37,404 bases of DNA from positions 1 to 37,404 of the forward strand of contig JAPKCC010000023.1 of the NCBI GenBank assembly GCA_028823105.1, read 5' to 3'. Made by a program: the position numbers and the translations under genes. This DNA is from Phycisphaerales bacterium (GTDB lineage Bacteria; Planctomycetota; Phycisphaerae; Phycisphaerales; SM1A02). Position 1 is the first letter of the stretch, and the number at the start of each line of letters is the position of its first letter. The notes under the pieces were generated by a model, which saw nothing but the letters and a program-made list of their open reading frames with translations, was not told the origin of the DNA and made no database searches. Of this stretch, positions 3 through 19,126 are shown piece after piece.

Positions 3-1457
3 AACGACGGCCGGATCGACATTCTCACCGCGGATGACGGTCAGGATGCGTACATGATTAACCACGGCAACAACAGCTCAGGCATCGCCACCTGGACCCG
101 GTACACCATCGCCGACAGCCTCGGTGAGTTCGGCAACTCGATCCAGATCGCGGATCTCGATGGCGACGGCTGGAAGGATGTCCTGATCGCCGACGTCGAC
201 TCGGATCTCCCGCCGTTCTGCCCCGACTCGAATCGGCGGATGCACATCTACCGAAACACCCACAACACCAGTTCCCTGCTCGACGAAGACGGGCTTGTGC
301 TTCCCCTCTGGGCGCTCGACTCCACCTACGACGCGGCTCCGATCGACCTCAACAACGATGGCGCGATCGATCTGGTCATCGGTGCCTGCTACGGCTTCAG
401 CGTGTGGATGAACAACCCGCCGATCCGGCTTGAATTCGTCTATCCCTCCGGTCTGCCCGAGTCGGTCCTTCCGAATGTCGAGACTCCCATCGACTTCCAG
501 ATCGATGCAATCGGTTCGGACTTCGAGTCGGGCTCCGCCAGTCTCTGGGCATCGATCGACGGTGCCGACTTCACCGAACGCCCCGCAACCGGCAAGGGGG
601 GGACGCTCACCGCGACCCTTCCCGCAGTCGATTGCGGACAGACCCTCGAGTACTACCTCACGGCCAGAAACGACGCCGGAACGACCTTCCGAAATCCGGC
701 ATCTGGCGCCTACTCCGTCGACGTGCGAACCGATCTCGTCGTCCTCTTCGAGGATGACATGGAATCGGGAAGCAACGGATGGACCACCGAAGCTGATCCC
801 TCGACCACCGCGGGCTTCTGGGAACTCGTCGTGCCGGTGGGCACTGTGAACGGCGGCATCGAATTCGCGCCGTCGACTGATGCGTCAGCCAACGGAACAC
901 GATGCTGGGTGACCCAGAATGGAGCCGCCGGTGGAGCCGCAGGAACCGCGGACCTCGACAACGGCCCCGTCACCCTCACCTCGCCTTCGTTCGATCTCTC
1001 CAGCGGCAACGCGAACCTCAGTTTCAACTGGTGGCTCGTCAACGATGACGCCGGAACTGCGGCCGAAGATCGACTCTCCGTCCAGTTGACCAACGGTGGC
1101 CCCTGGGTCGAAGTGATGAACTTCACCAACGGCTCGCCGGGATGGAACTTCGCGTCCATCGACGTGGCCAGCCACGTCGAGCCGACGTCGACCGTCGCCA
1201 TTCGTTTCATCATCGCCGACGCCCCCAACAACTCGCTCACGGAATGTGCCATCGACGACCTCGTCATCGATCGAGTCGAGTGCGAGTCCGGCCCGATCTG
1301 CCCCGAGGACATGAACGGGGACGGGACGGTCAATGGTGCGGATCTCGGACTGCTGCTCGCCGCCTGGGGCACCGACGCTGGTGACTTCAACGGTGACGGC
1401 ACCACCAACGGTGCGGACCTCGGCCTGATGCTGGCGGCCTTCGGCACCGATTGCTGA
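3..1457 (+). CDS. Secreted FG-GAP/VCBS-repeat protein with C-terminal dockerin-like module (5' truncated)
   Basis: The frame is open to the left edge of the window, so the N-terminus, including any signal peptide, is missing; the ATG at 54 is an internal Met. The visible N-terminal part carries FG-GAP/VCBS-type Asp-rich loops (NDGRIDIL, DLDGDGWKDVLIADV, DLNNDGAIDLVIG) that normally bind Ca2+ in beta-propellers. A middle Ig/jelly-roll-like region follows (DDMESGSNGW, then a FNWWLVND stretch), of the kind found in extracellular adhesins and hydrolases. The last ~50 residues hold two DxNGDGTxNGADLGLxLAA motifs bracketed by Cys, resembling the dockerin-like tails frequent in Phycisphaerae exoproteins. 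The product is probably extracellular or surface attached. No catalytic domain is seen in the visible part, so its function is open. Confidence 0.85.
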   Translation, partial: NDGRIDILTADDGQDAYMINHGNNSSGIATWTRYTIADSLGEFGNSIQIADLDGDGWKDVLIADVDSDLPPFCPDSNRRMHIYRNTHNTSSLLDEDGLVLPLWALDSTYDAAPIDLNNDGAIDLVIGACYGFSVWMNNPPIRLEFVYPSGLPESVLPNVETPIDFQIDAIGSDFESGSASLWASIDGADFTERPATGKGGTLTATLPAVDCGQTLEYYLTARNDAGTTFRNPASGAYSVDVRTDLVVLFEDDMESGSNGWTTEADPSTTAGFWELVVPVGTVNGGIEFAPSTDASANGTRCWVTQNGAAGGAAGTADLDNGPVTLTSPSFDLSSGNANLSFNWWLVNDDAGTAAEDRLSVQLTNGGPWVEVMNFTNGSPGWNFASIDVASHVEPTSTVAIRFIIADAPNNSLTECAIDDLVIDRVECESGPICPEDMNGDGTVNGADLGLLLAAWGTDAGDFNGDGTTNGADLGLMLAAFGTDC

Positions 1458-1490
1458 ACGAGCCCGTCATGGTTCTCAACTAAAAACGAA

Positions 1491-1516
1491 CCCCCGCCGC
1501 GAGGCGGGGGTTTTTT
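1491..1516. terminator. Bidirectional rho-independent terminator
   Basis: A perfect 8-bp GC stem (CCCCCGCC / GGCGGGGG) with a GCGA tetraloop is followed by six T on the plus strand and preceded by an A-run (1482-1486) that serves as the T-run on the minus strand. It lies between two convergent genes ending at 1457 and 1554, so it can stop transcription in both directions. Confidence 0.92.
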
Positions 1517-1553
1517 CTTACCCGGACGATTGCAGAGACGCGTGAGAACGCCC

Positions 1554-3401
1554 TCAACGAGCGAAACGATGGCGACCTGGTTCGATCGGGCCTTCCACCG
1601 TCGTGACCTCGCCATCCGGCCAACGAATCTCGAGCCGATCAATCGCTAGAGCAGGGCCAAGTCCAAAGACTGCCACCGGTTCGACCTGTGAGAGATAGGA
1701 ACGGGTCGGCATGATCCGACGGATCATCCTGCGGTCGCCGACGGATGCGGTCAGCACCGATCCGATGCCGCGGGGGTTGCCGTCCGGCCCGTCGAGCCGG
1801 ACTTGAACCGACTCGAATCCGGTCGCATCATTTCGAAGCACCAGCGGTGGCCCGGCGACCTGGGTGATGACCAGGTCCAGATCACCATCAAGGTCGAGGT
1901 CGCCCGACGCAAGCGCACGCCCGACGACCGGTCTTGCCAGGTCTCCGGTCGCAGCCGACGGGACCTCGCGAAAACCGACGCCTTCGTTGGACGAGATGCC
2001 TCGGAAGACCTGCGCGGGCTGCCGATACCGTTGACTGGCCTGAACCCGTTGGATCTCTTCTTCCAGATGACCGTTCGCCTGCACCAGATCTTCGATTCCG
2101 TCGAGATCAAGGTCTGTGAACAACAGTCCGAAGGTGAGCGATCGACGACTCGGCCCAGAGATCCCTTCGCCTGCGGCGTCGTCGAAGAACGTCGACTCCC
2201 CTGCCCGGCGCACGAAGAGCGAGCTGGGTTCATTGGCGAAGTTGCCGATCGCGACCAACGTATCGACGCCGCCTCGAGACGGACGATTGGCCACGTCGAT
2301 GCCCATGGCTCCGGTGGCCGAACCCGAGCGGTCGAATGCCACGCCGACCCGTCGTCCCCGTTCCTCGAAATACCCGGTTCCGTCATTGAACCAGACCGCA
2401 TTCGGTGTGGTGTCGTTCGCGCCGATCAAGTCGAGATCACCATCATCATCCAGATCAATGATGGCCAGCCCGAGTCCCTTTCCCTCGTCAACATCGGTCT
2501 CGGGATTCAACTGCGTCAATCCACGTTCGCCGCCGACCTCCACGAATCGCCTCCGGCCTTCGGTCGTGTCATTGAGCAGAAGGAACGGTTTGGTTCCTGC
2601 GAATCCGATCGGCGGACCATAGGCACGGCCGATTCCGTCGAGCCGAAAGTCGACCGCCGCATCGGCCTCCGGCGACCACTCGACGTATCGAAGGCCCACC
2701 AGATCAAGATCCGAGTCACCGTCGAAATCGCCGAATCCCACCGCCGTACTCCAGGCCTCGTCGTCCGAGAGGCCGAACTCGTCGGTGCCATCGCGGAATC
2801 GAATTTGATCGAGGGACGACTCGTTCAGGAGCAGCCGATCGCGGCCGAGCATCGAGATATAAAGGTCCACATCGCGATCACCATCAACGTCGCCGGCGGC
2901 GATCCCCATTCCATGCCCAGGGATCTTCGGAACCCCTTCTACCACCCGATCGAACATCGTCGCACCATCGCCGTCGTCTCGATTTGCATAGATGACCACC
3001 CGATCACCGGGTGAGGCGTCGGTCAGATCCCCGCCATCGATGAAGACCAGCTCAGGTCTCCCGTCTCCATTCAGATCGACGATCGCGACGCCACCTCCGA
3101 CCGTCTCGGGAAGCAATTTTCCACCTCTGGCGCCATCGTCTCGTTGAAATCCGACGCCCCAGGCCTCCGCCATGTCGGTGAAGGGCATCGCCGCGTCAGT
3201 CACTTCCGGCGCCGGCTCGCGATCGACTTGTGGCGCTTCGACTGTGGTCTCGTCGACCGTCGGGGAGGAACCCGGACCCAGCAGCGAACGAGCGAGCAGG
3301 ATCCCGCCGATGGCGGCGCCACCAAGGCCTCCGATCCAGAGGCTGCGTCGGAAGACGACGCCGATGATCGCATCTTGGTCGCGTCGCGTCGGGTCGCTCA
3401 T
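1554..3401 (-). CDS. CRTAC1-family protein: FG-GAP repeats with C-terminal ASPIC/UnbV domain
   Basis: This 615-residue protein has an N-terminal hydrophobic segment (about residues 15-42, GGLGGAAIGGILLARSLLG) that acts as a membrane anchor or uncleaved signal. A linker leads into many FG-GAP/VCBS loops (DLNGDGRPELVFID, DVDGDRDVDLYIS, DFDGDSDLDLVG, DLDDDGDLDLIG, DLDLDGDLDLVI), predicted to form an extracytoplasmic beta-propeller. The last ~80 residues (NPRGIGSVLTASVG ... RLEIRWPDGEVTTVEG) match the ASPIC/UnbV domain that ends CRTAC1-type proteins. Its start codon overlaps the stop of the upstream multihaem cytochrome gene by 4 nt (ATGA), so translation is probably coupled. The pair most likely works together at the cell envelope; the biochemical role of this family is not established. 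Confidence 0.9.
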   Translation of the reverse strand: MSDPTRRDQDAIIGVVFRRSLWIGGLGGAAIGGILLARSLLGPGSSPTVDETTVEAPQVDREPAPEVTDAAMPFTDMAEAWGVGFQRDDGARGGKLLPETVGGGVAIVDLNGDGRPELVFIDGGDLTDASPGDRVVIYANRDDGDGATMFDRVVEGVPKIPGHGMGIAAGDVDGDRDVDLYISMLGRDRLLLNESSLDQIRFRDGTDEFGLSDDEAWSTAVGFGDFDGDSDLDLVGLRYVEWSPEADAAVDFRLDGIGRAYGPPIGFAGTKPFLLLNDTTEGRRRFVEVGGERGLTQLNPETDVDEGKGLGLAIIDLDDDGDLDLIGANDTTPNAVWFNDGTGYFEERGRRVGVAFDRSGSATGAMGIDVANRPSRGGVDTLVAIGNFANEPSSLFVRRAGESTFFDDAAGEGISGPSRRSLTFGLLFTDLDLDGIEDLVQANGHLEEEIQRVQASQRYRQPAQVFRGISSNEGVGFREVPSAATGDLARPVVGRALASGDLDLDGDLDLVITQVAGPPLVLRNDATGFESVQVRLDGPDGNPRGIGSVLTASVGDRRMIRRIMPTRSYLSQVEPVAVFGLGPALAIDRLEIRWPDGEVTTVEGPIEPGRHRFAR

Positions 3402-6304
3402 CGGTCGTCCACCTTGGCGGGCAGTACTGCGGTAGGAGGAGCCGCCACGTCCGAATGCAGTTCATAGATTGCGAGCGGCTCCGCCGCGTGATCCGCAATC
3501 TCGCTGCGGCTTCGGGCGAGTCGAATGGCGCGATCCCGTGCATTGTTATCCGGCCGAAGCAGTTCGAACTCGGCTTGAGCCTTTGCGGACCCGGCCGCAT
3601 CGCCAGACGCGGCGCGGATCGTGGATGCCAGGAACCAAGTCTGCGCGACCTGTGAGTTCAGTTCGAGGCTACGTTCAACCGCCTTGGTCGCTTCTTCCAA
3701 CCGCTCGGCGCTCGCGGAATCAGTCGGTGCCCGACGAGCCAGTTGGAACTGGATGGTGGCCATCTCGTTCCACACCCGCTCGTCAAGCGAGAAGTCATAT
3801 CCCCGCTCGACCGCGACGGGATATCGCGCCGCGATGATTCGTTCCAGTCGTCGCGCCGCTTCCTCGAGATCGCCGTTCTCCCGAGCCACCGCCGCGGCGT
3901 ACCAATCGACCGCCCATGGCCACCGAAGGTCTGGATCGTTCGCCGCCCGGGCGAGGGCCGAAGCCGCATCGTCGATCCGCCCCTCGACGAGCATCGCCCG
4001 CCCCTGATTGATTGCCCCATCGGAGAACCCGAGCCGCTCCACCGCAACGAACGCCTCGATCGCCTGGGCGAGCTGGCCCTTCGCGACGCCGCCCCCCGAT
4101 CCGGCCCGCACCAGTCCGATGCCGTAATCGTTCCATCGCTCCCACGCTGGCGCCACCAACGACGTGGTTGCGACTCGCTGGGTGGACGCGGAGCCAACGG
4201 GAATGACCACCCTGGTCTCCGCGAGATCGAGGATCGGAAGCGTCTTCAGAAGGCGAGCCCCCTCCTCGGCACCGAACGCGTGATCCATGAGCCGGGAGTC
4301 GAACTTTCGATAGCGGACGCGGCCACGGATCTCAAGTTCACCGACGGCGTCTTGGGGCACCCGGATTCGGTAGTGCGTGAGATCCGCGGCACCCGGAGGA
4401 ATCTGGTGGTTGTAGAGCGGAACGAAGATGTCCTCGGGATTTCGCTGTTCGATCCGTCGTCCCTCGCGATCGAGAAGCCAGACGCCGAGGAATTTCGCAC
4501 GAGGATCGACCACCCCGTCCGTACCGATCATCCCGCTCGCTCCGAGTGACCCCGTCGTTTCGGCGGGGCGAAGGCTCACCTCGATCTCAATCCAGATCTC
4601 GTTGGAGTCGGCGGTTCCCTGGGTCAAGGGATGCCCCAGGCGCAGCGTGCGGGTCACCGCCTCGAGCAACACGACCTCACCGGGCTCCACCCAGACTCGC
4701 GACTCGCCGATCGGCCCTCGGAATGGTCCGTCGACCTGACCCTCGCCCCGGATCCCGACGAGGTCGAGCCGGATTGCGTCCTCGTTGAACCGGGTGCACG
4801 CCTCCACCACCCGCTGAAGTCGCTCGGTCGCCTCGTCTCCAGGCTCCATCGCCGCGGCGATCGCGGCCAGGCCGGTGTTCGCGGCATGGAACCCGTGATG
4901 ATGGACCGTCGCCGCCCCGGATTCGTCGCGGATGTTCGCCGCGACGGTGTCACTCGAGACCAGGGGCATGTGGCAGTCGTTGCAATCGTCGCTGATCTCC
5001 CCGGGCCAGTACCAGGAACCGATCCCTCGCCCCGAGACGCCGGAAAGACGCCAGGTGTCATAGTGATTCTGCCCCGCCAGCCACTTGTATCCGTTGAGCG
5101 TCTCGGGGAGGAAGACCTTGTGACAAGCCCCGCAGAACTCGGCGGTCTGATGAACCGGTTTGAGGAACGTCCGCTTGTGGAAATCCGGCTTGGCGAGAAT
5201 GAGTTGGCGATTGACCCACTGGAGAAACCCGGAGTCACTGAATGCGAACGGATACCGCGGTGGATCACGGAAGGTAAAGGACGCGTTGCCCAACGTCGTG
5301 ACGTCCTCGATCCCGTGACAGACGATGCAGCCGATGCTGGCACTGCCCAGCGGGTCGATCGAAACAGCGTCGGCCAGGTCTGGGTCGGTCCAACGGGATT
5401 CGCTCCAGGCACCGGTCAAGAGAATCGCGGGATCATGACATCCGGCGCAGAAGCGGCTGATTTCCACGGATCCAAAACGATCGATCATCGCCTGCCGAGT
5501 GTTCCGTACGCTGAAGGCGTAGACCGGATTATTGAATGAACTCCGCGCGTGCACTGAGTCAGCCCATTGGGCGTGCGCGTCCGCGTGGCAACTGATGCAG
5601 TGGTCGTTTCCCAAGAGATGCGCGGGAGGAATGAGGTCATCGTGCGCCGTCTCTAGAAGCGATGGTGCGAAGTCCGCGTTGCTCGAAACTGCCATCGCGA
5701 CCGGCGTGGCATCCGCCGCGGGTATCTCCACCGGAGAAGCGAATGCGAATAGCAGCCATCCGGCGAGCGCGACCCCGCCACCGGACCAGGCCACACCGAC
5801 CCGCCATCGCAATCGCGGCCCGACCAGCCGATGAAGAATGAACAGCCAGATCGCGATCAGCGGACTGGTCGCATGAACCCAGAAGAGCACCGATCTTGCG
5901 AATGAGTCATCGATCCCCAGTCGCAGTCCGCCAACCTCCACCCGCACCAGTACCAGCCCGGTGACCAGAAGCGCGACCGCGATCCAGAGCAGGCCCCAGC
6001 CCACCGCGACGGCTCGTCGATTTCGCCGATGCCGACCACGTCGAGCGTGTCCGACGCCGTAGATGATGAAGGGCACGATCAGGAGGAGCCCAAGGCCGAG
6101 ATGGACGAGGAACGCCCAGAGGTAACGGCCGTCCTCCCGCACCTCGCCCGACCACCAGGCCGCGACGTCGGTCGCCACAAGGATCAAGCTGTCCACCATC
6201 AGCAGGCCGAAGAGCACGAACACGACCTGCAACCAACGCCGGAGGGCCGTGGTAATCACCGGTCCCTTGACGCGTCGGATTTCATGCTCGTGTGAGGTGT
6301 TCAT
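3398..6304 (-). CDS. Membrane-anchored pentahaem cytochrome c with C-terminal TPR region
   Basis: A 968-residue protein. Residues ~20-195 contain about five hydrophobic segments with charged loops and several His, which could be a membrane quinol- or haem-b-interacting domain (inference). The periplasmic part has five CxxCH c-haem sites starting at C236, C286, C326, C391 and C441, with extra His near the last (a THHHGFH-like cluster around residues 465-475) as possible axial ligands. This arrangement recalls cytochrome c554-like multihaem proteins. Residues ~745-940 are helical repeats with TPR-like Ala/Gly/Leu spacing. The ATG at 6304 has a good AAGGAAG ribosome site 5-6 nt upstream. The gene is translationally coupled to the CRTAC1 gene. 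A role in periplasmic electron transfer is probable; the electron donor and acceptor are unknown. Confidence 0.87.
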   Translation of the reverse strand: MNTSHEHEIRRVKGPVITTALRRWLQVVFVLFGLLMVDSLILVATDVAAWWSGEVREDGRYLWAFLVHLGLGLLLIVPFIIYGVGHARRGRHRRNRRAVAVGWGLLWIAVALLVTGLVLVRVEVGGLRLGIDDSFARSVLFWVHATSPLIAIWLFILHRLVGPRLRWRVGVAWSGGGVALAGWLLFAFASPVEIPAADATPVAMAVSSNADFAPSLLETAHDDLIPPAHLLGNDHCISCHADAHAQWADSVHARSSFNNPVYAFSVRNTRQAMIDRFGSVEISRFCAGCHDPAILLTGAWSESRWTDPDLADAVSIDPLGSASIGCIVCHGIEDVTTLGNASFTFRDPPRYPFAFSDSGFLQWVNRQLILAKPDFHKRTFLKPVHQTAEFCGACHKVFLPETLNGYKWLAGQNHYDTWRLSGVSGRGIGSWYWPGEISDDCNDCHMPLVSSDTVAANIRDESGAATVHHHGFHAANTGLAAIAAAMEPGDEATERLQRVVEACTRFNEDAIRLDLVGIRGEGQVDGPFRGPIGESRVWVEPGEVVLLEAVTRTLRLGHPLTQGTADSNEIWIEIEVSLRPAETTGSLGASGMIGTDGVVDPRAKFLGVWLLDREGRRIEQRNPEDIFVPLYNHQIPPGAADLTHYRIRVPQDAVGELEIRGRVRYRKFDSRLMDHAFGAEEGARLLKTLPILDLAETRVVIPVGSASTQRVATTSLVAPAWERWNDYGIGLVRAGSGGGVAKGQLAQAIEAFVAVERLGFSDGAINQGRAMLVEGRIDDAASALARAANDPDLRWPWAVDWYAAAVARENGDLEEAARRLERIIAARYPVAVERGYDFSLDERVWNEMATIQFQLARRAPTDSASAERLEEATKAVERSLELNSQVAQTWFLASTIRAASGDAAGSAKAQAEFELLRPDNNARDRAIRLARSRSEIADHAAEPLAIYELHSDVAAPPTAVLPAKVDDR

Positions 6305-6338
6305 GGCGGCTTCCTTGGATATCGACTACCCATCGCCG

Positions 6339-6393
6339 CGATCATCCGTCTTTCCGATCATCCGTCTTTCCGATCATCCGTCTTTCCGATCAT
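6339..6393. repeat. 16-bp tandem repeat, three and a half copies
   Basis: Three identical copies of a 16-bp unit (CGATCATCCGTCTTTC) start at 6339, 6355 and 6371, followed by a 7-nt partial copy (CGATCAT). They lie in the 139-bp gap between the ferredoxin stop and the start of the cytochrome gene, ending about 34 bp upstream of that ATG (6304), in its likely leader or promoter. Perfect copy identity suggests recent expansion or a repeated protein-binding site. Confidence 0.95.
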
Positions 6394-6443
6394 GCGGAAT
6401 CGATCTACCGCCGGCGACGTCTCCAGCACCACTTCGGGCCGTA

Positions 6444-6842
6444 TCAGTGCGGCACTTCCTTGACCGCATTCCGATTCCAAGCGGGCACCCGAACGGTGAG
6501 CGGACCCGTACCTTCGATCTTGCATTGACAGGCGAGTCGACTGTTCACCTGCAGTCCCGGGGCCTCTTCGACCCGATCCTCTTCGTCATCGTCGCTCTCG
6601 CTCACCTGATCCATGCCCTGTTCGACGTATACGTGGCACGTCGAACACGCGCACACCCCTCCGCAGGCATGCTCGATGTTGATGCCGTTTTCGATGGCGA
6701 GTTCGAGGAGATTCTCCCCTTCACCACCCATCAGGTCCCATTCGGACTGCTCGGTACTGGTGAGTCCTTCGGGGTCTTCTAGGACGAACTTGACGGGCAC
6801 GATCGGAGGACCGTGTTCTTCGCCACTGTGTTTCATATGCAT
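6444..6842 (-). CDS. ISC-type [2Fe-2S] ferredoxin
   Basis: A 132-residue soluble ferredoxin of the adrenodoxin/ISC class. The cluster ligands are C60, C66 and C69 (motif ACGGVCACSTC) and C105 (RLACQC). The spacing C-x5-C-x2-C-x35-C is that of the ISC-ferredoxin family. It has an acidic insert (SDDDEED, residues 83-89) before the fourth Cys, which could serve partner docking. This family passes electrons to Fe-S assembly or to oxygenases and P450s. No isc genes are adjacent, so the partner cannot be told. The start at 6842 is chosen because AAGGA lies 9 nt upstream; an ATG two codons later is further from that site. Confidence 0.93.
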   Translation of the reverse strand: MHMKHSGEEHGPPIVPVKFVLEDPEGLTSTEQSEWDLMGGEGENLLELAIENGINIEHACGGVCACSTCHVYVEQGMDQVSESDDDEEDRVEEAPGLQVNSRLACQCKIEGTGPLTVRVPAWNRNAVKEVPH

Positions 6843-7004
6843 CGATCAGAATCCTTGATCGGAGGGCCGATCCCGCAGGGTCGACGATCGGTGAGCGGAT
6901 AGGAAGACGAGAGGCCCGTCGGTCGGAGCCGAACCGGATCCTCAGGGGAGGAATCCCGTCTGATCCATCATCATAGTCTCAACCAGACGACGGTTCCCGG
7001 GAAG

Positions 7005-7032
7005 TTGACGGGGCCGGATGCTACGCTAATCG
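7005..7032 (+). promoter_or_regulatory. Candidate sigma-70-type promoter of the rlmN-like gene
   Basis: TTGACG (7005-7010) is followed after 16 bp by TAATCG (7027-7032), placing transcription start near 7039, about 19 nt before the ATG at 7058. The -35 box is good and the -10 box is weak. It lies in the 215-bp divergent gap with the ferredoxin gene. Confidence 0.4.
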
Positions 7033-7057
7033 ACTCAAGCCTCTTTTGACCCCTCCC

Positions 7058-8182
7058 ATGAGCCTCCCAAACTCCGACATTTCGGCCCCAGATCCGCTTG
7101 GCCTCACGGCCCAGGCGTACGCCTCGGCATCGGAAATCGCCGGTCTGACCCGAGGTCGAGGCGGTATCGAGACCTATCGTCGATTCCATCGCGAGGGAAT
7201 CGTGCCTCACGGAACTTCTCCGGCGACGCACGCCGTGGGCCGACGCGAGGTCGAAGGCGAGACCACCAAGTTCACCCTCACGCTCTCAGGCGGAGTCGAG
7301 ACCGAATCCGTTCTGATTCCGATGCGTAAGCGAGATGGCACGATCACTCGGACGCTCTGCGTGTCCAGCCAGATCGGCTGCGCGATGGGATGTCGCTTCT
7401 GCGAGACGGCCCAGATGGGACTGGTACGGCAACTTCGGACCGAGGACATCGTGGCCCAGTGGCATGCCGCCGCCCATCAGATCGGCATCAGGCCGAAGAA
7501 CATCGTCTTCATGGGCATGGGTGAACCAACCGACAATCTCGACGCGGTGATCCCGGCGATCCGAATCCTTGCCGACCACGACGGCCCCGCGATCGCAGCG
7601 TCGAACATCTCGGTCTCGACGGTTGGAAATCCGGATGGCATCCGCCGCCTTGGCGAACTCGCCGCGGAACCGGGTTTTCGTCGGCTAAACCTGGCCGTCA
7701 GTCTCAACGCACCCAACGATGTGATCCGCGCGGAGATCATGCCCGTCGACCGAGTCTGGCCGATGGCGGACCTCATGAATGCGATGCTCGGCTGGGCGGG
7801 CCGGCCGAAGTCTGCGATCTGCGTCGAGTATGTCCTCATTCCGGGGGTCAATGACGCTCACGAACACTGCGACGAGGTGTGCGAGTACCTCCGTCCCTTG
7901 CGGTGTTCGTTGAACATCATTCCCTACAACCCCCGCCGGAATTCGCCGTGGCCGGCGCCGATCGAAGCCGACGTTGATGCCTTCGTCGAACGCGCGGTGC
8001 GGCATGGCCAGTTCACCAAACGTCGTGGGACGAAAGGTCGAGACGTGATGGCGGCCTGCGGCCAGTTAGGGAATCCTGAGATCCGACGCCGACGATGGGT
8101 CGAGGACGGCAGCCCGATCTCGATCTCGGTCCGCGGCGAACGCCCTCCCGGCCAACTCGTCCCATCGGATCCCGAATCTTGA
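7058..8182 (+). CDS. rlmN: RlmN/Cfr-family radical SAM 23S rRNA methyltransferase
   Basis: RlmN methylates C2 of A2503 in 23S rRNA (and A37 of some tRNAs) through a radical SAM mechanism with a methyl-Cys intermediate. The [4Fe-4S] ligands are C108, C112 and C115 in SSQIGCAMGCRFC. The two extra catalytic Cys of the family are both present: C101 in LCVSSQ and C334 in the AACGQL tail. MGMGEPTDN matches the conserved segment after the SAM motif. The N-terminal ~60 residues do not resemble the usual RlmN accessory domain well, so a divergent RlmN or Cfr-like enzyme is possible. The start ATG at 7058 is preferred over an in-frame TTG at 7046. The stop overlaps the probable TTG start of the ABC transporter gene. 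Confidence 0.9.
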   Translation: MSLPNSDISAPDPLGLTAQAYASASEIAGLTRGRGGIETYRRFHREGIVPHGTSPATHAVGRREVEGETTKFTLTLSGGVETESVLIPMRKRDGTITRTLCVSSQIGCAMGCRFCETAQMGLVRQLRTEDIVAQWHAAAHQIGIRPKNIVFMGMGEPTDNLDAVIPAIRILADHDGPAIAASNISVSTVGNPDGIRRLGELAAEPGFRRLNLAVSLNAPNDVIRAEIMPVDRVWPMADLMNAMLGWAGRPKSAICVEYVLIPGVNDAHEHCDEVCEYLRPLRCSLNIIPYNPRRNSPWPAPIEADVDAFVERAVRHGQFTKRRGTKGRDVMAACGQLGNPEIRRRRWVEDGSPISISVRGERPPGQLVPSDPES

Positions 8183-10173
8183 CTCCGCCATCCACCAACC
8201 ACGAGACCATCGAACCTGACGACGATCCGCTCCTCCGACGGGGATCGAGCAGTCGGCGTTTCATCGCCTATCGAAAGATGCTCGCCCGCCGACGCGAGAA
8301 GGCCAAAACCACGGCCACGATGGTGAGTCGGAGCGGGGAAGTCCGAAGCCTCAAGAGATCGCGCGGCGCCCTCGAACTCCTTCGGGTCTTCTTCGGACTC
8401 CTTGGCCGACGCCGAAAACCTGTGCTCCTCGCACTCGGCACCCTGACGATCGCTACCGGTCTGAAGTTGATTCCGCCGGCCGCGACGAAGATCGCGATCG
8501 ACTACGCCTTCACGGGCGACGGTCTGCCCCCCGCCGCAGATCGTTGGGTGCCTTCTTCTTGGGGCATTGATGACGATCCCAAGCGACTTCTGGTGGCCAT
8601 CGGTCTGGCTTTGCTGGTCGTGGCCACCCTGTCCGTCTCGATCGGACTCTGGGGTCGATGGCAGGCCACGAAGGCCACCCGGACGCTGGCCGTCGATATT
8701 CGGCGCAAGGTCCTCGATCACGCCATCCGATTCCCCTTGCATCGGATTAACGAACTTCGATCGGGAGGTGCCTCCAGCATGCTCCGCGAGGACGCGGGCG
8801 GCGTCGCGGAACTGATCTTCGGCATGCTCTACAACCCTTGGCGGGCGATCATCCAACTGGTCGGCAGCCTGGTGATTCTCGCGGTGACCGATTGGCGACT
8901 CCTTTTCGGAGCGGTCATTCTCCTTCCCATGGTGTTCATTACGCACCGGACGTGGATCGGTCGGATTCGCCCCCTCCATCGCGACCTCCGGGTGCTTCGT
9001 TCCGAGGTCGACGCCCACGCAACTGAGGTGTTCGCCGGGATCCGCGTGGTTCGTTCCTTCGCCCGTGGCAGGAGTGAAACCGCTCGATTCGCACGCGGCG
9101 AGCATCTGATGGCCCGCCAGATGATCCACGTGTGGTGGTGGTCTCGAATCACCGAGACGGGGTGGGCCCTCGCGATTCCCCTGGCCAGCGCCGGCCTGCT
9201 CTTTTACGGTGGCATGCAGGTGATCGACGGGGTCATCACCACCGGCGATCTCGTCATGTTCCTCACGTACCTCCTCATGCTGCTCGGACCGATCGAGGCG
9301 CTCGCATCGAGCGCGACGAGCTTTCAGACCAACCTCGCGGGGCTCGACCGCGTACTTGACCTGCTTGAGGAACCGACGGAGATGCCCGATCGATCGGGTT
9401 CACGAAGCCTGATCCCCGCGAAGGTGACCGGACGAATCGAAGTTGACCAACTTCGATTCCAATATCCCGCGTCGGAGAAACCCGTTCTTGAGAACGTGTC
9501 ATTCGTCGCCGAACCCGGACACCTCGTCGCGTTCATCGGGGCATCGGGTGCCGGCAAGACGACTCTTTGCAACCTGCTTGCACGATTCTTTGATCCCGAC
9601 ACTGGAGTCATCCGACTTGATGGCGTCGATCTGCGAGAGATTCAGCTCGATTCCTACCGAAACCTTCTGGGCATCGTCGAGCAGGACGTCTTTCTCTTCG
9701 ACGGCACGATTTCCGAGAACATCGCCTTTGGCCGCCGCCATGCCACGGCCGCGGAAATCCGGGATGCCGCGGCGGCCGCGAACGCCCTCGAGTTCATTGA
9801 CGAGACCCCCGACGGCATCGACACCCTGATCGGAGAACGTGGCGTCCGACTCTCCGGAGGTCAACGACAACGGCTCGCCATCGCCCGTGCGATCCTCGCC
9901 GATCCGCAAATCCTCATCCTTGATGAAGCGACCAGCAACCTCGACTCCGCCAGCGAACGCCTGATCCAGGAGTCGATCAACCGTCTCCTCGTCGGCCGCA
10001 CCACCTTTGCGATCGCCCATCGGCTAAGCACCATCCGGCACGCGAACCTGATCGTGATCCTCGAAGGAGGCACCATCGTCGCAAGCGGAACCCACGACGA
10101 ACTTCTCGAACAGAGTGATCACTACCGTGACATGGTCGCGATCCAGACCGCGCCGGCCGAACCGATCAGATGA
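8179..10173 (+). CDS. MsbA-like ABC exporter (fused TMD-NBD half-transporter)
   Basis: About 664 residues. A basic cytoplasmic N-terminus (SSRRFIAYRKMLARRREK) precedes a six-helix exporter domain (about residues 75-380) and a nucleotide-binding domain. The NBD has Walker A GASGAGKTT at 454-462, signature LSGGQ at 558-562, Walker B ILILDEA ending at E583, and the H-loop His at 614 (AHRLSTI). It should work as a homodimer exporting lipid-linked or hydrophobic substrates; the substrate is not determinable from sequence. The start is uncertain: a TTG at 8179 overlaps the rlmN stop by 4 nt and keeps the basic N-terminus, whereas ATG codons at 8278 and 8320 would remove it. Translational coupling to rlmN is likely. 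Confidence 0.93.
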   Translation: MTPPSTNHETIEPDDDPLLRRGSSSRRFIAYRKMLARRREKAKTTATMVSRSGEVRSLKRSRGALELLRVFFGLLGRRRKPVLLALGTLTIATGLKLIPPAATKIAIDYAFTGDGLPPAADRWVPSSWGIDDDPKRLLVAIGLALLVVATLSVSIGLWGRWQATKATRTLAVDIRRKVLDHAIRFPLHRINELRSGGASSMLREDAGGVAELIFGMLYNPWRAIIQLVGSLVILAVTDWRLLFGAVILLPMVFITHRTWIGRIRPLHRDLRVLRSEVDAHATEVFAGIRVVRSFARGRSETARFARGEHLMARQMIHVWWWSRITETGWALAIPLASAGLLFYGGMQVIDGVITTGDLVMFLTYLLMLLGPIEALASSATSFQTNLAGLDRVLDLLEEPTEMPDRSGSRSLIPAKVTGRIEVDQLRFQYPASEKPVLENVSFVAEPGHLVAFIGASGAGKTTLCNLLARFFDPDTGVIRLDGVDLREIQLDSYRNLLGIVEQDVFLFDGTISENIAFGRRHATAAEIRDAAAAANALEFIDETPDGIDTLIGERGVRLSGGQRQRLAIARAILADPQILILDEATSNLDSASERLIQESINRLLVGRTTFAIAHRLSTIRHANLIVILEGGTIVASGTHDELLEQSDHYRDMVAIQTAPAEPIR

Positions 10174-10931: not shown

Positions 10932-13805
10932 TCAGTCCGCCGACTCCTCGATCTTTCGGTCGAGTCTCGACCCGAATCGAACATAGATCAGACTCGTCGC
11001 AACCATGAGGAGCCCGAGGCCGAGTGCCGAAATGACTCGATACACCGTGGCGGCACGACTCAGATCGAAGAACAGAAACTTCATCGCGGTCACCCCGAGC
11101 AGCAGAAGCCCGAGATGACGGATGATCGCAATACCGAAGAAGAACCCGCCCCCGATCAGGGCGATGGCGTACGCGGCCCAGAAGATGCTCAATGCCGCAT
11201 TAAACTCGACGCCATCCCGGCCGAAGAGATCGAGCAGGGCGAAAGAGCCGATCCACAGACCGACCAAAACGGACAGGAGTCCCGAAATCGGAACGATCTG
11301 ATCGGATCGTTCGGGCGACTCAACGTCGACCCTGGCCGCTCGCGGCCAGCACTTCGCCGTGAGCAGCGTCGCCATCAAGAGTGCCAGTCCGGATCCAAAT
11401 CGCAGGTTCATCCCGAAAGCGACCTCGTCAGCCTGGTTGGCGAAAACTCCGAAACTCTCGAGGATCGTAACCCCGAGCCAAATCCAGCTCGCGCTCACCA
11501 CAATCCAGCCGGCAAGCGAACGCCCGATCTTCCAAAAAGTTCGACCAGAGAGCACGATGAGCAGTGTCGACATCAGCGCCGCAGCAGCCGCCCCGGCGAA
11601 GAAATTCGCTACCGGCATCGCCCAGGGCGTCGCGGAGTTCACGAACCAGACCATGCTGCCAACGATCGCCGGTAAGACGAATTGAAGCGTGTTTAGATTG
11701 CCAACGATTCGTTGTCGATTCGGCGAGACACTACCGAAACTGCCTGCGGACAGCCAAAGCATCTGCAGAACGAGGAACGCGTATGGCACCATCGTCCAGA
11801 AGAAGATCGTCGAGAGCCCGATACCCTGGTTCACATCCGCGGCATTCAAATCGCCCCCCTGAACGAGAACCACCGCCTGAAAGAGCAGCAGCAGGGCGAT
11901 CAATGACCCCAGCCCGTTGAGGATCAATCCGGCGGTCCAACCTGCATGATCACCGCGGCTCCGTGCCACCAAGGTCGCCGCGAACACGGCGATCGATAGC
12001 ATCAGGACGAATGAAGCCTCGCCGCCAAATGGCGCCATGGTTCCGACAAAGAGCGGTGCCGCGATGAACATCGTGAGGCTGGGGCCGATCACCGTGGTCC
12101 GACTTCGCGAGGTGCGGGGCAAAGTGGGATTCGGCCAGAGCCGGGCGATGGCGAAGAGCACCAGAAGAACGACAAAGGGAAGCCATTGACTCGGCGATGC
12201 CGACCATGACCAGGGCGTCCGGTCGAACCAGACGGTCATCCCCGTCGCACGCCACTCACCCAGCACGATGACCATCGCCGCAAGCTGCCCGAGCGAAGCC
12301 ACCACCAGCGAGAAGATGGCGATGCCACGATTCTGCATTCGATGGGCGAGATAGATGGACGCAAGTCCAAGTCCACTCCATGCCACGGCGACGGCGGGGC
12401 CTTCGAGCAAGAGGCCCGCGGAGACGAGAAGCAACACGCCCGCCTCGATCCAGAGCACCAGCGACCACTGATTGAGGCAGCGATCGCGTCGACGCCGCGG
12501 CACTCGGTCGGCCGAAGGCGCGGCGAGGGCTTCCAACCCGGTGCCCATCTGGAAGATCGTGACCAGTGCGAACGCGGCGAGACCCAGAGGAATCCAGCCT
12601 TCCGGGGACGTCCAGTCTCCGAACGTACCACCACCGAAGGCGACGGAGGCGCGAATCCCCAGCGGAACGAAGATCGCGAAGACGGCCGTCGAGACAAACC
12701 CCAGTCCCTCATTCCAACCGCTCGCCAGACCTCGCGAAGCCATGTGCAGTGCCTGGAGGTGCACAATCAACCACCATGCGGACGCAATGATCAGGAGTAT
12801 CGTGGTCGCCCCGTCCCCGACGGCAAGCAACAACCACGGAACGGCGGCGATCAAAAGGATGACGAACGCCGGCATCCGAAGTTTGAGAAAAGGCCTCGGC
12901 CTGATGGACGCTGCCGCGAAGGCGATGACCAGAAGCGACGTCAGGTACATGCCGAGCACGGCCGGGCCGCCGTCACCTCCGGCAAGGTAGGGCGCCGCGG
13001 CACCGGCGGCGATGCTGACGACGCCGATCGAGACCGAGCCCGAGCGAGCGGTCAGAAGAATGCCAATCACCGTCACCATGGCCATCGCGATGAGCGCGTG
13101 GAGGGGTGAGAGGAGCCCGAGAACCGGTCCCGCCGACCAGGCATCGACGTACAAGGTTCCGAGGCCTGCAATAAAAAGCCCGACCGCGGCGGCACGACCA
13201 TATCGCCGGAATAGAAACTCGCCCACGCCGAGAATCGCAGCCCCGAATGCCGTGAGCGCGGCTGCCCGCGCCCCGGCGGGGATGTTCCCGATCCAACCCT
13301 TGTCGTAGGCCAGTTTCGCGAAGAACGCGGCGGCGATCACCACGATCACCCCGCCCACCAATGCCATCACCCGGCCGCCGATCAGTTGCTCGAGGCCACC
13401 TTGACGCGAACTGGCTCGCTCATCGGGAGTTGTGCCGTGATCATGTTGTGACCGCACAGACTCGGCCGTCGCGTCCCTGCCGCCCTGCAGAGGAAGGGGC
13501 GGAGGCGATGATCCCCGACGTTCCGAAAAAAGAGCCGCGGCCGACGGGACGGTCGGAGTCGCCTCGTCGGCCGCATCGGCTGCAGCTGTTGGAACGGACC
13601 GTTCAAGGCCCGCTGATTGTCGTGCGTCAGTTCCGGATTTTGAAGCTTCCTTGGCGAAGTCCTTCGAAGAATTCTGTGACTCATCGGATGATCCAATCGA
13701 GTCATTGGTCAACCGTGCCTTCTCGAGTCGATCGATTCGATCGATTCGATCGACCAAATCTTCAAGCCGTTCTTCAATCCGATGCAAACGTTCTTCGTTC
13801 GGCAC
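10932..13805 (-). CDS. DUF2339 polytopic membrane protein
   Basis: A 957-residue protein with an N-terminal coiled coil (HRIEERLEDLVDRIDRIDRLEK), then a ~100-residue polar Ser/Ala/Asp-rich linker, then more than 20 hydrophobic helices from about residue 145 to the C-terminus. The first block (GGLEQLIGGRVMALVGGVIVVIAAAFF) is the hallmark opening of DUF2339. The family is widespread and without an established function. It is read from GTG at 13805 with no clear ribosome site. The coiled coil is encoded partly by a 9-bp DNA repeat at 13732-13752. The gene follows the glycosyltransferase stop by 50 nt on the same strand, so it may sit at the distal end of the carotenoid transcript. Confidence 0.88.
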   Translation of the reverse strand: MPNEERLHRIEERLEDLVDRIDRIDRLEKARLTNDSIGSSDESQNSSKDFAKEASKSGTDARQSAGLERSVPTAAADAADEATPTVPSAAALFSERRGSSPPPLPLQGGRDATAESVRSQHDHGTTPDERASSRQGGLEQLIGGRVMALVGGVIVVIAAAFFAKLAYDKGWIGNIPAGARAAALTAFGAAILGVGEFLFRRYGRAAAVGLFIAGLGTLYVDAWSAGPVLGLLSPLHALIAMAMVTVIGILLTARSGSVSIGVVSIAAGAAAPYLAGGDGGPAVLGMYLTSLLVIAFAAASIRPRPFLKLRMPAFVILLIAAVPWLLLAVGDGATTILLIIASAWWLIVHLQALHMASRGLASGWNEGLGFVSTAVFAIFVPLGIRASVAFGGGTFGDWTSPEGWIPLGLAAFALVTIFQMGTGLEALAAPSADRVPRRRRDRCLNQWSLVLWIEAGVLLLVSAGLLLEGPAVAVAWSGLGLASIYLAHRMQNRGIAIFSLVVASLGQLAAMVIVLGEWRATGMTVWFDRTPWSWSASPSQWLPFVVLLVLFAIARLWPNPTLPRTSRSRTTVIGPSLTMFIAAPLFVGTMAPFGGEASFVLMLSIAVFAATLVARSRGDHAGWTAGLILNGLGSLIALLLLFQAVVLVQGGDLNAADVNQGIGLSTIFFWTMVPYAFLVLQMLWLSAGSFGSVSPNRQRIVGNLNTLQFVLPAIVGSMVWFVNSATPWAMPVANFFAGAAAAALMSTLLIVLSGRTFWKIGRSLAGWIVVSASWIWLGVTILESFGVFANQADEVAFGMNLRFGSGLALLMATLLTAKCWPRAARVDVESPERSDQIVPISGLLSVLVGLWIGSFALLDLFGRDGVEFNAALSIFWAAYAIALIGGGFFFGIAIIRHLGLLLLGVTAMKFLFFDLSRAATVYRVISALGLGLLMVATSLIYVRFGSRLDRKIEESAD

Positions 13806-13855: not shown

Positions 13856-15112
13856 TCAACCGGGTCGGCCGCGCCAGGTTCGACGTCCCGTGAAGTGCAA
13901 CAAGAGGCTCCACCACTGAAGCAATGTGAACACCATCAGCGCCGCCGGATGCAGCACCACGCCGGTCCAAGCCTGTTGAAATCGCACCGCAAGACACATT
14001 CGCTGCGTGATTTGAATGATGACTGCGGCTGATGCGAATCCCACCGCGGCCGCTGAAACGCCCGACGTCTCCGGCCCAACACCCTCAAGCACCAAGGCCA
14101 GACCAAGGACGAACCACGGAGCCACGTGCCCACCGAGATGAAGTACCGTCAGCAGAAGCAGCAAGAATATGTTCCCCAGGCCCTCGTAAGAGTTCTTCGC
14201 AAACCCCCGCCAGGTCTCGGCGAACCCGTGGTACATGCGGCAGTCAACGATGTCGGTGCCATCAAAGATGTCCGTGGCATGTCCGGCACGTCGAAAGATC
14301 CGGGGAAGTCGCACCCCGTCGTGCATCGAATTCCTGATCACTGCATGTCCTCCGACGTCCAGCCAGGCATCCCGCCGAGCGAGCACGAACTGCCCACACG
14401 CCGCACTTGCCGCCGGATCGAGCGAAGAACGCATTCGACCGATGGGCAGGTAACTCATGAGGATGAAGTGAATCAATGGGACGACCAGAGTCTCACCGAC
14501 CGTTCCGGTTCGTTCGCGAGGAAATGCCGAGAGCAATCCGATGTCGCCGTTCACGCCTCGCTGGGCTTGAACCGCGGCACGGGTGCGTTTCAGACAGTCG
14601 GGGGCGAACCGGACATCCGCATCGGTGAACAGCAACCAGTCTGTGTCGGCCTGTCGGCCCATGCGATCGCACGCATGCTGCTTCCCATTCCATCCCGATG
14701 GAAGTGGGTTCACACTGGCCCCGACTACTCGACAATCATCCTCTGCGAGCTTCGCGAGAATCGCCGGCGTCTGATCGTCGCTGGCGTCGTCGTAGACCAT
14801 GATCGTCGTCGATGACGCTGGATCAGCGTCGGCGGACTCCAACGCGCTCCGGACGCACGTTTCAAGGTTGGCGGCTTCATTCCGTGCCGGAATGCAGACG
14901 GTGATCGACCAGCCCTGATCATCTGGATCCATGGCTGCCGGGGCGCGGCGGAATCGACTCAGGTTTCGGAGGGAGATCAACAAGGCGATGACGGAGATGG
15001 CCAATGCCCCCGCCATCCACCAGGTCACCCAGTCAGGCGACGCCGACTCCGCCACCGGACTTGCGGTCTGAATCATGCCGAGCAGAAAGATGCCACCGAG
15101 CATCGAATTCAT
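13856..15112 (-). CDS. Family-2 glycosyltransferase, carotenoid-locus (CrtQ-like)
   Basis: A 418-residue membrane-associated glycosyltransferase. An N-terminal TM (TWWMAGALAISVIALLISL) is followed by a GT2 catalytic domain with SITVCIPARNEAANL, MVYDDASDD and the DxD-type LLFTDADV, plus an acceptor-side GWNGKQHAC stretch and C-terminal hydrophobic helices (LLLLLTVLHLGG, VLGLALVL). This is the layout of CrtQ-type enzymes that glycosylate a carotenoid carboxylate. The start at 15112 is chosen because its ATG overlaps the acyltransferase stop as ATGA; the frame stays open further upstream. With the adjacent acyltransferase, CrtI-family enzyme and aldehyde dehydrogenase it can complete an acyl-glycosyl carotenoid ester. 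Sugar and acceptor are inferred from context only. Confidence 0.85.
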   Translation of the reverse strand: MNSMLGGIFLLGMIQTASPVAESASPDWVTWWMAGALAISVIALLISLRNLSRFRRAPAAMDPDDQGWSITVCIPARNEAANLETCVRSALESADADPASSTTIMVYDDASDDQTPAILAKLAEDDCRVVGASVNPLPSGWNGKQHACDRMGRQADTDWLLFTDADVRFAPDCLKRTRAAVQAQRGVNGDIGLLSAFPRERTGTVGETLVVPLIHFILMSYLPIGRMRSSLDPAASAACGQFVLARRDAWLDVGGHAVIRNSMHDGVRLPRIFRRAGHATDIFDGTDIVDCRMYHGFAETWRGFAKNSYEGLGNIFLLLLLTVLHLGGHVAPWFVLGLALVLEGVGPETSGVSAAAVGFASAAVIIQITQRMCLAVRFQQAWTGVVLHPAALMVFTLLQWWSLLLHFTGRRTWRGRPG

Positions 15113-15918
15113 ACCGACTCCCGGGACGTGGATCGCCTCGCCGCGATGCCGCCGGACCGACCTCGAATTCGAAGCCACGCATCCATGAACGGATTGATCC
15201 GGTGCTTTCCCCCCACGAGGACCTCGAAGGCCGACTCATCGCGGGCGATACTCGCCGCGGCAAGATCCATGGCGCATCGACGCATTCCTTCTTCCATGGC
15301 TCGGTACCAGTCGGTGGTGGAACCCGCTTCCGGCGAGTCGCATGACCGAATCGCTACCAGCAGTTCAGGCCTCGCGTCCTGCCAGAACACATATTCGATG
15401 GAGATCACCAGCACGCGTGGCGACCGTTCGCAGGCCGCCGCAATCGCCGCCGCGCCGGGCCGAAGTCGGATTGGCTCGCGTGGATCAGTGAATCGACCCT
15501 GCGGCGTGAGGCCCAACAGCGTGTCTGGTGATCGCGAGAGACGCTGAAGCACATGACTCCGCATTCGAGCCATCGAGGTTGGATCATCGGGATCGATGCC
15601 AAACACCCCGAGACGGCGGAAGAACCGGAATCGCGAGAGTTGCTCGCTGGCCATCGGCATGAGAATGTCCCGGCCAGACATGAGCTTTCGCCAGAGCACG
15701 AGGCCGACTAGTGGATCCCACCAAGACCCATGACTGATCAGGGCGATCAGAGATCGCTCCTCGCTCGATGCATCTTCGAGGATCTCCCGACTTCCTTCGA
15801 GAAGTCTCAACGCGTGAAAGCGCCGCGACACGAGTCGAGTCGCGTACCACGCGAAGAACCGGCGGAATGCAGGTGACGGCCGATCCTCGATCAGCCCGTC
15901 ATCACTGGTTCCCGACAT
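15109..15918 (-). CDS. PlsC-like acyltransferase in carotenoid operon
   Basis: A 269-residue acyltransferase with an HX4D catalytic motif at H63-D68 (SHGSWWDPL) and a later TPQGRFTDP segment corresponding to the substrate-binding EGTR-like motif of PlsC-type glycerophosphate acyltransferases. Its position between a CrtI-family gene and a CrtQ-like glycosyltransferase suggests it adds a fatty acyl group to a glycosylated carotenoid rather than making phospholipid (inference). It is unrelated in type to staphylococcal CrtO as far as can be seen. The start at 15918 has an AGGAGGAAT ribosome site 4-5 nt upstream, and overlaps the upstream gene by 28 nt. The stop overlaps the next ATG by 4 nt. Tight coupling marks one operon. 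Confidence 0.85.
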   Translation of the reverse strand: MSGTSDDGLIEDRPSPAFRRFFAWYATRLVSRRFHALRLLEGSREILEDASSEERSLIALISHGSWWDPLVGLVLWRKLMSGRDILMPMASEQLSRFRFFRRLGVFGIDPDDPTSMARMRSHVLQRLSRSPDTLLGLTPQGRFTDPREPIRLRPGAAAIAAACERSPRVLVISIEYVFWQDARPELLVAIRSCDSPEAGSTTDWYRAMEEGMRRCAMDLAAASIARDESAFEVLVGGKHRINPFMDAWLRIRGRSGGIAARRSTSRESV

Positions 15919-17483: not shown

Positions 17484-17566
17484 GCTGGCTTCGCTCCATT
17501 GTCTTGCCGGGTAATTCTTCACCCCGCGCTTCCAAAATCCTGATCCATGCGGTCAATCAGGTTCGA

Positions 17567-19075: not shown

Positions 19076-19126
19076 CGAGGGTCTCCACGGCCCTTTCGAC
19101 CGCAATTAGGTTCGCGAGTAGTCTAC

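Follow-up and report, generated by a model that had tools for sequence, protein, structure and literature searches.

A predicted di-haem-b/pentahaem-c membrane cytochrome encoded beside an ASPIC propeller protein in Planctomycetota

CbcL of Geobacter sulfurreducens has been described as an inner-membrane quinone oxidoreductase in which a single chain carries nine c haems followed by a six-transmembrane (TM) di-haem b domain of the HydC/FdnI type (PMC9129911, PMC6295460), and ImcH of the same organism as a protein with three N-terminal TM helices, a NapC/NirT-like region and seven haems (PMC6295460). In an account of hydrazine-synthase (HZS)-like loci, a CRTAC1-family FG-GAP gene accompanies the genes for HZS-like subunits in clades I and II, and an FG-GAP gene lies upstream of the HZS-like genes in clade III (PMC12758564). 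Here we describe a gene pair in a 37,404-nucleotide (nt) stretch of DNA from a Phycisphaerales bacterium of the phylum Planctomycetota (GenBank assembly GCA_028823105.1, contig JAPKCC010000023.1; hereafter the window), which is the entire contig C114 of a 3.35-Mb assembly that is 97% complete. The pair encodes a membrane cytochrome, P0001, and an FG-GAP/ASPIC protein, P0002, and we favor, with modest confidence, a reading in which P0001 is a quinone-linked di-haem-b/pentahaem-c electron carrier, CbcL-like in its working without being CbcL, while the TPR tail and the ASPIC protein dock a redox partner. The features of the pair are as follows.

3398..6304, minus strand: P0001, membrane cytochrome of 968 amino acids (aa), with five TM segments, a pentahaem c domain, a beta-rich domain and a TPR tail
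1554..3401, minus strand: P0002, FG-GAP/ASPIC (CRTAC1-like) partner of 615 aa with a predicted N-terminal membrane anchor (open reading frame (ORF), Pfam, hydropathy)
3398..3401, minus strand: ATGA, 4-nt overlap of the cytochrome stop and the ASPIC start (sequence)
5735..6262, minus strand: TM domain, P0001 residues 15-190, with the predicted ligands of two b haems, H68 and H86 (TM2) and H144 and H158 (TM4)
6101..6103, minus strand: codon of H68, TM2, predicted periplasmic side (alignments; side from loop charges)
6047..6049, minus strand: codon of H86, TM2, predicted cytoplasmic side (alignments; side from loop charges)
5873..5875, minus strand: codon of H144, TM4, predicted periplasmic side (alignments; side from loop charges)
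5831..5833, minus strand: codon of H158, TM4, predicted cytoplasmic side (alignments; side from loop charges)
4865..5692, minus strand: pentahaem c-type domain, residues 205-480, with a cytochrome c554-like start (Pfam and profile matches)
5585..5599, minus strand: haem c motif 1, CISCH, residue 236 (sequence, alignment)
5435..5449, minus strand: haem c motif 2, CAGCH, residue 286 (sequence, alignment)
5315..5329, minus strand: haem c motif 3, CIVCH, residue 326 (sequence, alignment)
5120..5134, minus strand: haem c motif 4, CGACH, residue 391 (sequence, alignment)
4970..4984, minus strand: haem c motif 5, CNDCH, residue 441 (sequence, alignment)
4196..4777, minus strand: beta-rich domain, residues ~510-703, with the invariant H558 in a GH...GT.DSN..W block conserved in class A (model)
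3500..4147, minus strand: TPR solenoid tail, residues ~720-935 (profile matches, model)
3279..3335, minus strand: N-terminal hydrophobic segment of P0002, residues 23-41 (hydropathy)
1587..1769, minus strand: UnbV_ASPIC domain of P0002 (Pfam)

An earlier note on this DNA had recognized a 968-residue chain with five TM segments, five CxxCH sites and a TPR tail, whose stop overlaps the start of a membrane-tethered FG-GAP/ASPIC protein. The first part is borne out by the ORF, the motifs and hydropathy, which places five TM segments between residues 27 and 189 (a weak extra peak at 310-328, inside the haem region, was not read as TM), and the TPR tail by relatives and a model; the second is borne out by the ATGA overlap, by the single N-terminal hydrophobic segment of P0002 and by its Pfam matches, FG-GAP_3 at 71.8 bits (cut-off 26.9) and UnbV_ASPIC at 59.9 bits (cut-off 23.4). 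The four TM histidines, the beta-rich domain and a frequent third gene upstream are absent from that note. Of the 51 cytochrome-ASPIC pairs with enough sequence, 27 permit an overlap of exactly 4 nt. Immediately upstream of the cytochrome start, at 6339-6393, lies a perfect 16-bp tandem repeat of 3.4 copies that is possibly regulatory.

The likeness of P0001 to CbcL lies in the general plan, a TM di-haem b domain (its haems predicted in P0001) joined to a periplasmic multihaem c domain in one chain. P0001 differs in having five c haems instead of nine, a leading TM domain and thus a reversed order, five TM helices instead of six, and a beta-rich domain, a TPR tail and an ASPIC partner; identity with CbcL was rejected on haem number and domain order. 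With ImcH it shares an N-terminal TM part and a C-terminal multihaem c part, and it was set apart from ImcH by five TM helices with four invariant histidines and five c haems against three TM helices and seven haems. No NCBIfam model attains its cut-off with P0001 or P0002; ExtKL (NF040886), the best match of P0001, was rejected at 30.1 bits against a cut-off of 250. Together with a TM domain that lacks a good Pfam or PDB sequence match, this agrees with the expectation that the cytochrome matches no known reductase complex. The HZS-like loci differ in that the partners of their FG-GAP proteins resemble HZS subunits rather than a TM di-haem-b/pentahaem-c chain. Literature searches, with preprints and most subscription papers outside their scope, gave no description of the cytochrome/ASPIC pair among the papers listed; the pair is seemingly undescribed, with CbcL as a known analogue in working.

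Genome searches across the phylum revealed that the two genes are rarely apart. Class A cytochromes above 500 bits are present in 46 of 294 sampled phylum genomes (split across contigs in two), and all 46 hold a P0002-like protein, which lies directly downstream in 43, bearing out the pairing first read from one locus. Forty of these were found by script, on the same strand, and three were added by inspection: G274 (723 nt, ASPIC aligned in part) and G177 and G281, where the ASPIC gene is cut by the contig end (loci L015 and L022). Adjacency was counted from tblastn and genome-search positions rather than gene calls; cytochrome matches below 200 bits, except two contig pieces, and ASPIC matches below 244 bits were excluded, and none of the excluded ASPIC matches adjoins a counted cytochrome on reading the table. 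In G251 (L025) the partner lies ~3.4 kb downstream with one ORF called between. Counted from the partner's side, P0002-like proteins above 345 bits occur in 44 of the 294 genomes, 43 of which have a class A cytochrome; G177, G274 and G281, with weaker or contig-cut P0002-like matches, are the three of the 46 outside this set, and G085 combines a strong P0002-like match with no cytochrome match at E ≤ 1e-10. The hypergeometric value for the pairing is 7e-47, which ignores shared ancestry. Among loci gathered earlier and partly redundant with the 46, the partner is present in 64 of 67, the exceptions being L025, L037 (from G024) and L064 (contig end). Full-length relatives of ~40-80% identity retain the haem sites and, with few exceptions, the adjoining partner, which argues that the arrangement is not due to chance.

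Relatives 76-79% identical over the best segment come from metagenome-assembled genomes labelled Phycisphaera, Phycisphaerales, Phycisphaerae and, once, Planctomycetia. Within the window's family, 50 of the 61 genomes sampled, among them the source genome, have a class A cytochrome above 500 bits, and 56 of 81 genomes of a second family have one at E ≤ 1e-100. Matches above 700 bits also occur in 8 of 274 genomes of a class labelled Gammaproteobacteria, that of L010; an ASPIC partner is adjacent in five of these eight loci, L149 stops at the contig end, and L145 has no ASPIC match in the remaining 717 nt of its contig. An ASPIC match lies within 4 kb downstream in 52 of the 53 loci used for a mirror-tree comparison, which gave r = 0.89 over 51 pairs, uncorrected for the species tree, with L083 (without an adjacent ASPIC gene) and L090 (cut short) left out. 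The cytochrome and ASPIC trees share 20 of 48 splits, the nearest neighbor is the same in 25 of 51 cases, and the five proteobacterial ASPIC proteins cluster together while their cytochromes do not; we give the correlation little weight.

More divergent relatives revealed an exchange of modules between the two chains. Class B cytochromes (225-303 bits) occur in 29 genomes; a script placed a P0002-like match (E ≤ 1e-60) no more than 600 nt away in 13 of them, and reading the table added four at 603-685 nt. Among seven loci examined (L113-L119), the partner is adjacent in five, and other genes take its place in L118 and L119. For class C, nine of the 34 places seen were examined (L120-L128), and the ASPIC gene is adjacent in all nine, that of L124 being broken into several ORFs. 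The class C cytochromes terminate at or soon after the part matching P0001 residues 590-710, a length too short for a TPR tail, and in L123 and L128 the TPR is instead found on the ASPIC chain. In L122 a TPR/FG-GAP gene is next in line. In the proteobacterial class C loci L150 and L151 an ASPIC-HEAT chain lies upstream of the cytochrome, so that the gene order is reversed, and the ORFs still overlap. In G085 (L129), ASPIC, TPR and FG-GAP are fused in a single chain of 1656 aa (L129:6487-11457); a second large FG-GAP/ASPIC protein follows this giant fusion at L129:11423-14998, in a genome without a detected cytochrome. In the source genome, each of the two further ASPIC genes directly follows a TPR gene. 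The occurrence of the TPR on either chain argues for a single complex, and this solenoid/propeller exchange, as read from the sequences, is the best evidence that the modules may act together. The envelope redox complex suggested in the earlier note is supported by synteny, gene overlap and the TPR on either chain, and is amended by the prediction that the chain holds two b haems besides its five c haems.

The TM domain is the part of P0001 from which a link to quinone is predicted. H68, H86, H144 and H158 are invariant in all 72 distinct class A sequences aligned, the window included, and in a deeper alignment of 25 rows (nine class A, the seven class B and the nine class C), in which the class B and C TM domains are only 14-27% identical to that of the window, they are among just seven invariant TM residues, the others being G72, G102 and G116. 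The mean net loop charges over the 72 class A sequences alternate (+2.4, -1.0, +4.1, -0.2, +4.0, -1.7), a positive-inside pattern under which H68 and H144 lie at the periplasmic end of their helices and H86 and H158 at the opposite, cytoplasmic end, the c haems being periplasmic. Four TM histidines, two per membrane face, form the pattern expected of two stacked bis-histidine b haems, and we predict such haems on this ground. Modelled alone, the TM domain reached a mean predicted local distance difference test (pLDDT) score of 70.3, and its first Foldseek match was FdnI, the di-haem b subunit of formate dehydrogenase N, at a probability of 0.99 with an E value of 0.1; in the VIA comparison, cytochrome b6 and bc1 chains appeared at Z 7.4-8.0, a level that helical bundles reach by chance. 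An hhalign alignment, not a significant one, matches the H-x3-G of TM2 and a TG motif of TM3 to FdnI. One haem ligand of FdnI is supplied by TM1, and P0001 differs in that two would come from TM2. The match in fold of the TM domain is weak. A TM-domain profile run against PDB sequences gave a single match, a photosystem subunit at E 0.063, and in a Pfam scan of 41 family TM domains that of the window had none above cut-off; the best match of the others was UPF0182 (E 2.8e-4, three members). The commonest weak Pfam match of the TM domains, DUF7139 (P0001 residues 91-196; 16 of 41, best E 0.0037), is too weak to use.

The c-type domain retains its haem sites in the relatives aligned. Five CxxCH sites are present in 70 of the 72 class A orthologs, the remaining two having four plus a longer fifth motif, and five haem sites are retained in all 25 rows of the deeper alignment, the first as Cx4CH in eight of nine class C rows. 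PF13435 (Cytochrome_C554) matches residues 236-331 only (22.8 bits, cut-off 20.8), and profile matches were obtained to chains of cytochrome c552 (E 2.3e-6), MccSep (E 3.2e-6) and cytochrome c554 (E 0.0016); the best-scoring stretches span only the first haem motifs, at the start of the c domain, and leave out the TM, beta and TPR parts. Outside the TM domain and the haem motifs, only H252, H376, H470 and H558 are invariant across the 25 rows, four histidines to set beside five proximal ones. With so few fixed distal histidines across the classes, one c haem may have no fixed sixth ligand, which keeps alive a reading of P0001 as an enzyme rather than a wire: such a haem would reduce or oxidize a small periplasmic substrate, the b haems would exchange with quinone, and the ASPIC and TPR parts would hold the assembly. 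The substitution of H385 and H414 in each of the 16 rows of classes B and C (E or Q at 414), the c554-like start and the sub-threshold match to ExtKL all point in that direction. Within class A, however, H385 (71 of 72) and H414 (70 of 72) could complete all ligands, and a CxxCK motif is found in none of the 72 orthologs. We regard the enzymatic reading as unlikely.

The beta-rich domain, residues ~510-703, is predicted to consist mostly of strands in a whole-chain AlphaFold model, and its profile found nothing better than E 0.27 in the PDB. The TPR tail of the window is itself below the Pfam cut-offs; TPR_16 matches 26 of 31 scanned family tails at E ≤ 0.01, and the model of residues ~718-921 aligns to TPR proteins at Z 14.2-16.6. 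The structure models were built from nine-row alignments, and the whole-chain model is usable in its TPR part and not in its haem domain.

Under the reading of P0001 as an electron carrier, P0001 and P0002 would together make up an electron-transfer complex of the cytoplasmic membrane, connected with the quinone pool. The four TM histidines would hold two b haems, one near each face of the membrane, the fifth helix would bring the chain to the periplasm, and the five c haems would extend the wire. Electrons would most likely start from quinol, pass the b haems and then the c haems, and reach a partner in the periplasm or outer membrane; they could also run in reverse. The TPR tail and the ASPIC propeller, which has its own predicted TM anchor and an overlapping gene, may serve as a docking platform for the redox partner, possibly joined in many relatives by a third TPR/FG-GAP chain encoded just upstream, which in L010 and L097 has a lipoprotein-like start.

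Several results weigh against this proposal. With regard to the b haems, VIA ranks designed and other helical bundles over cytochromes b, FdnI is absent from the 50 VIA rows for the TM model, and hhalign comparisons based on shallow profiles were not significant, either with 17 family bc1-type cytochromes b (probability 0.5%) or with E. coli FdnI, FdoI, HyaC and CybB (0.8%); the control, the cytochrome b group against the FdnI/FdoI/HyaC/CybB group, also reached just 0.4%. In the haem domain, including the ligand pairs, the P0001 model is of low quality (pLDDT mostly below 50). With regard to the pair, the partner is unlinked in two class A genomes (G024 and G087), L147 of the proteobacterial class is without an ASPIC partner in 20 kb, and the class C ASPIC chains of L120 and L121, two of the four scanned among L120-L128 (the others being L123 and L128), show no solenoid. 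Lastly, the source genome carries a bc-type cytochrome b N-terminal domain and an NrfD protein (contig C144), so that P0001 is not the only likely quinol route; P0001 as a replacement for complex III was rejected on this ground. In the sample of 61 genomes from the window's family, 28 encode such a cytochrome b domain and 56 an NrfD protein.

The gene neighborhood was surveyed in 49 loci with flanks of varying length, using gene calls and blastp clusters; the calls on which the cluster counts rest sometimes picked an antisense ORF or a wrong start where loci are GC-rich. A TPR/FG-GAP protein of ~1143 aa is present in 22 of the 49 and directly upstream in 15, and in L010 and L097 its start reads as a lipoprotein-like signal. 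Such a protein, together with the CbcL-like plan of di-haem b and multihaem c in one chain, might suit an entry point for extracellular electron transfer like CbcL or ImcH, from which electrons would travel through an outer-membrane conduit to minerals. However, no porin-cytochrome conduit was recognized among the 13 neighbor clusters found in at least five of the 49 loci (at least one member of each was Pfam-scanned, and one cluster gave no match at all), and the haem number and domain order are unlike those of CbcL; extracellular electron transfer by this route is improbable.

We judge it just as improbable that co-transcription is all that links the genes, with the ASPIC protein working on its own at the surface or in adhesion and forming no complex. 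ASPIC proteins do occur beyond the pair: the source genome has three. The genes lie far apart in G024 and G087. Against this stand the 43 of 44 genomes in which a P0002-type match above 345 bits is accompanied by the cytochrome, the location of the TPR on the cytochrome or on the ASPIC chain, and the overlap that persists in L150 and L151 with the gene order reversed. An assembly or redox-sensing factor, such as a cytochrome-maturation helper with a TPR working like CcmI or NrfG, is very improbable, since the weak matches of 10 of 31 tails to TPR_CcmH_CycH (best E 5.2e-5) are one among many generic TPR matches in the list and no cytochrome-maturation gene was recognized in the 13 recurrent neighbor clusters.

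Three further features flank the pair.

6444..6842, minus strand: 2Fe-2S ferredoxin (Fer2) upstream of the cytochrome on the same strand; cluster in 11 of 49 loci, association with the pair uncertain
1488..1513, strand not assigned: terminator-like stem, 11 pairs on the plus and 10 on the minus strand, separating the ASPIC gene from the convergent gene 54-1457
54..1457, plus strand: convergent FG-GAP protein, apparently truncated by the contig end; cluster in 16 of 49 loci, usually downstream and on the opposite strand

The stem is the longest of six terminator-like sites found in 1400-7100, where 3.1 are expected. The convergent FG-GAP gene seems to be split between the window and contig C106 of the source genome, which ends with a di-haem oxidoreductase (DHOR) gene and the start of an FG-GAP gene (L112:13976-15202); by gene order, this end fits as the absent left neighbor of the window. 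Beyond the split gene, C106 carries DHOR, TPR and ASPIC genes in an order resembling L097. DHOR and carbon-nitrogen hydrolase clusters recur in 12 and 14 of the 49 loci. On the other side of the pair, a radical SAM gene (7046-8182, plus strand; RlmN-like on reading the sequence) overlaps as an ORF with that of an ABC exporter (8095-10173, plus strand), their clusters occurring in 13 and 10 of the 49 loci. Farther along, 10932-13805 (minus strand) encodes a DUF2339 membrane protein of 957 aa, and 13856-19105 (minus strand) holds genes for a glycosyltransferase, an acyltransferase, an amine-oxidase-type flavoprotein and an aldehyde dehydrogenase in a row, which we take to be reminiscent of an acylated glyco-carotenoid pathway.

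Our results tentatively suggest a new family of membrane complexes for electron transfer, frequent in Planctomycetota and also encoded by some Gammaproteobacteria, that would consist of a di-haem-b/pentahaem-c chain, an integrin-like ASPIC propeller and an alpha-solenoid, the latter made of TPR, on one chain or the other, or of HEAT repeats, on the ASPIC chain. If this is true, at least part of the bacterial ASPIC/CRTAC1 propellers would be regular subunits of redox complexes and not adhesins. To our knowledge, bacterial ASPIC/FG-GAP proteins have no agreed role, and a pairing this close to strict, seen across the phylum with a multihaem chain predicted to be quinone-linked, offers one ASPIC group a role that can be tested; the FG-GAP genes beside HZS-like genes hint that propellers accompany haem complexes more widely. 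The pair is likely a respiratory or redox component that was missed by family models, NCBIfam for both proteins and Pfam for the TM domain of the window, and the presence of the cytochrome in most sampled genomes of the window's family indicates that it is a common trait there and not a curiosity.

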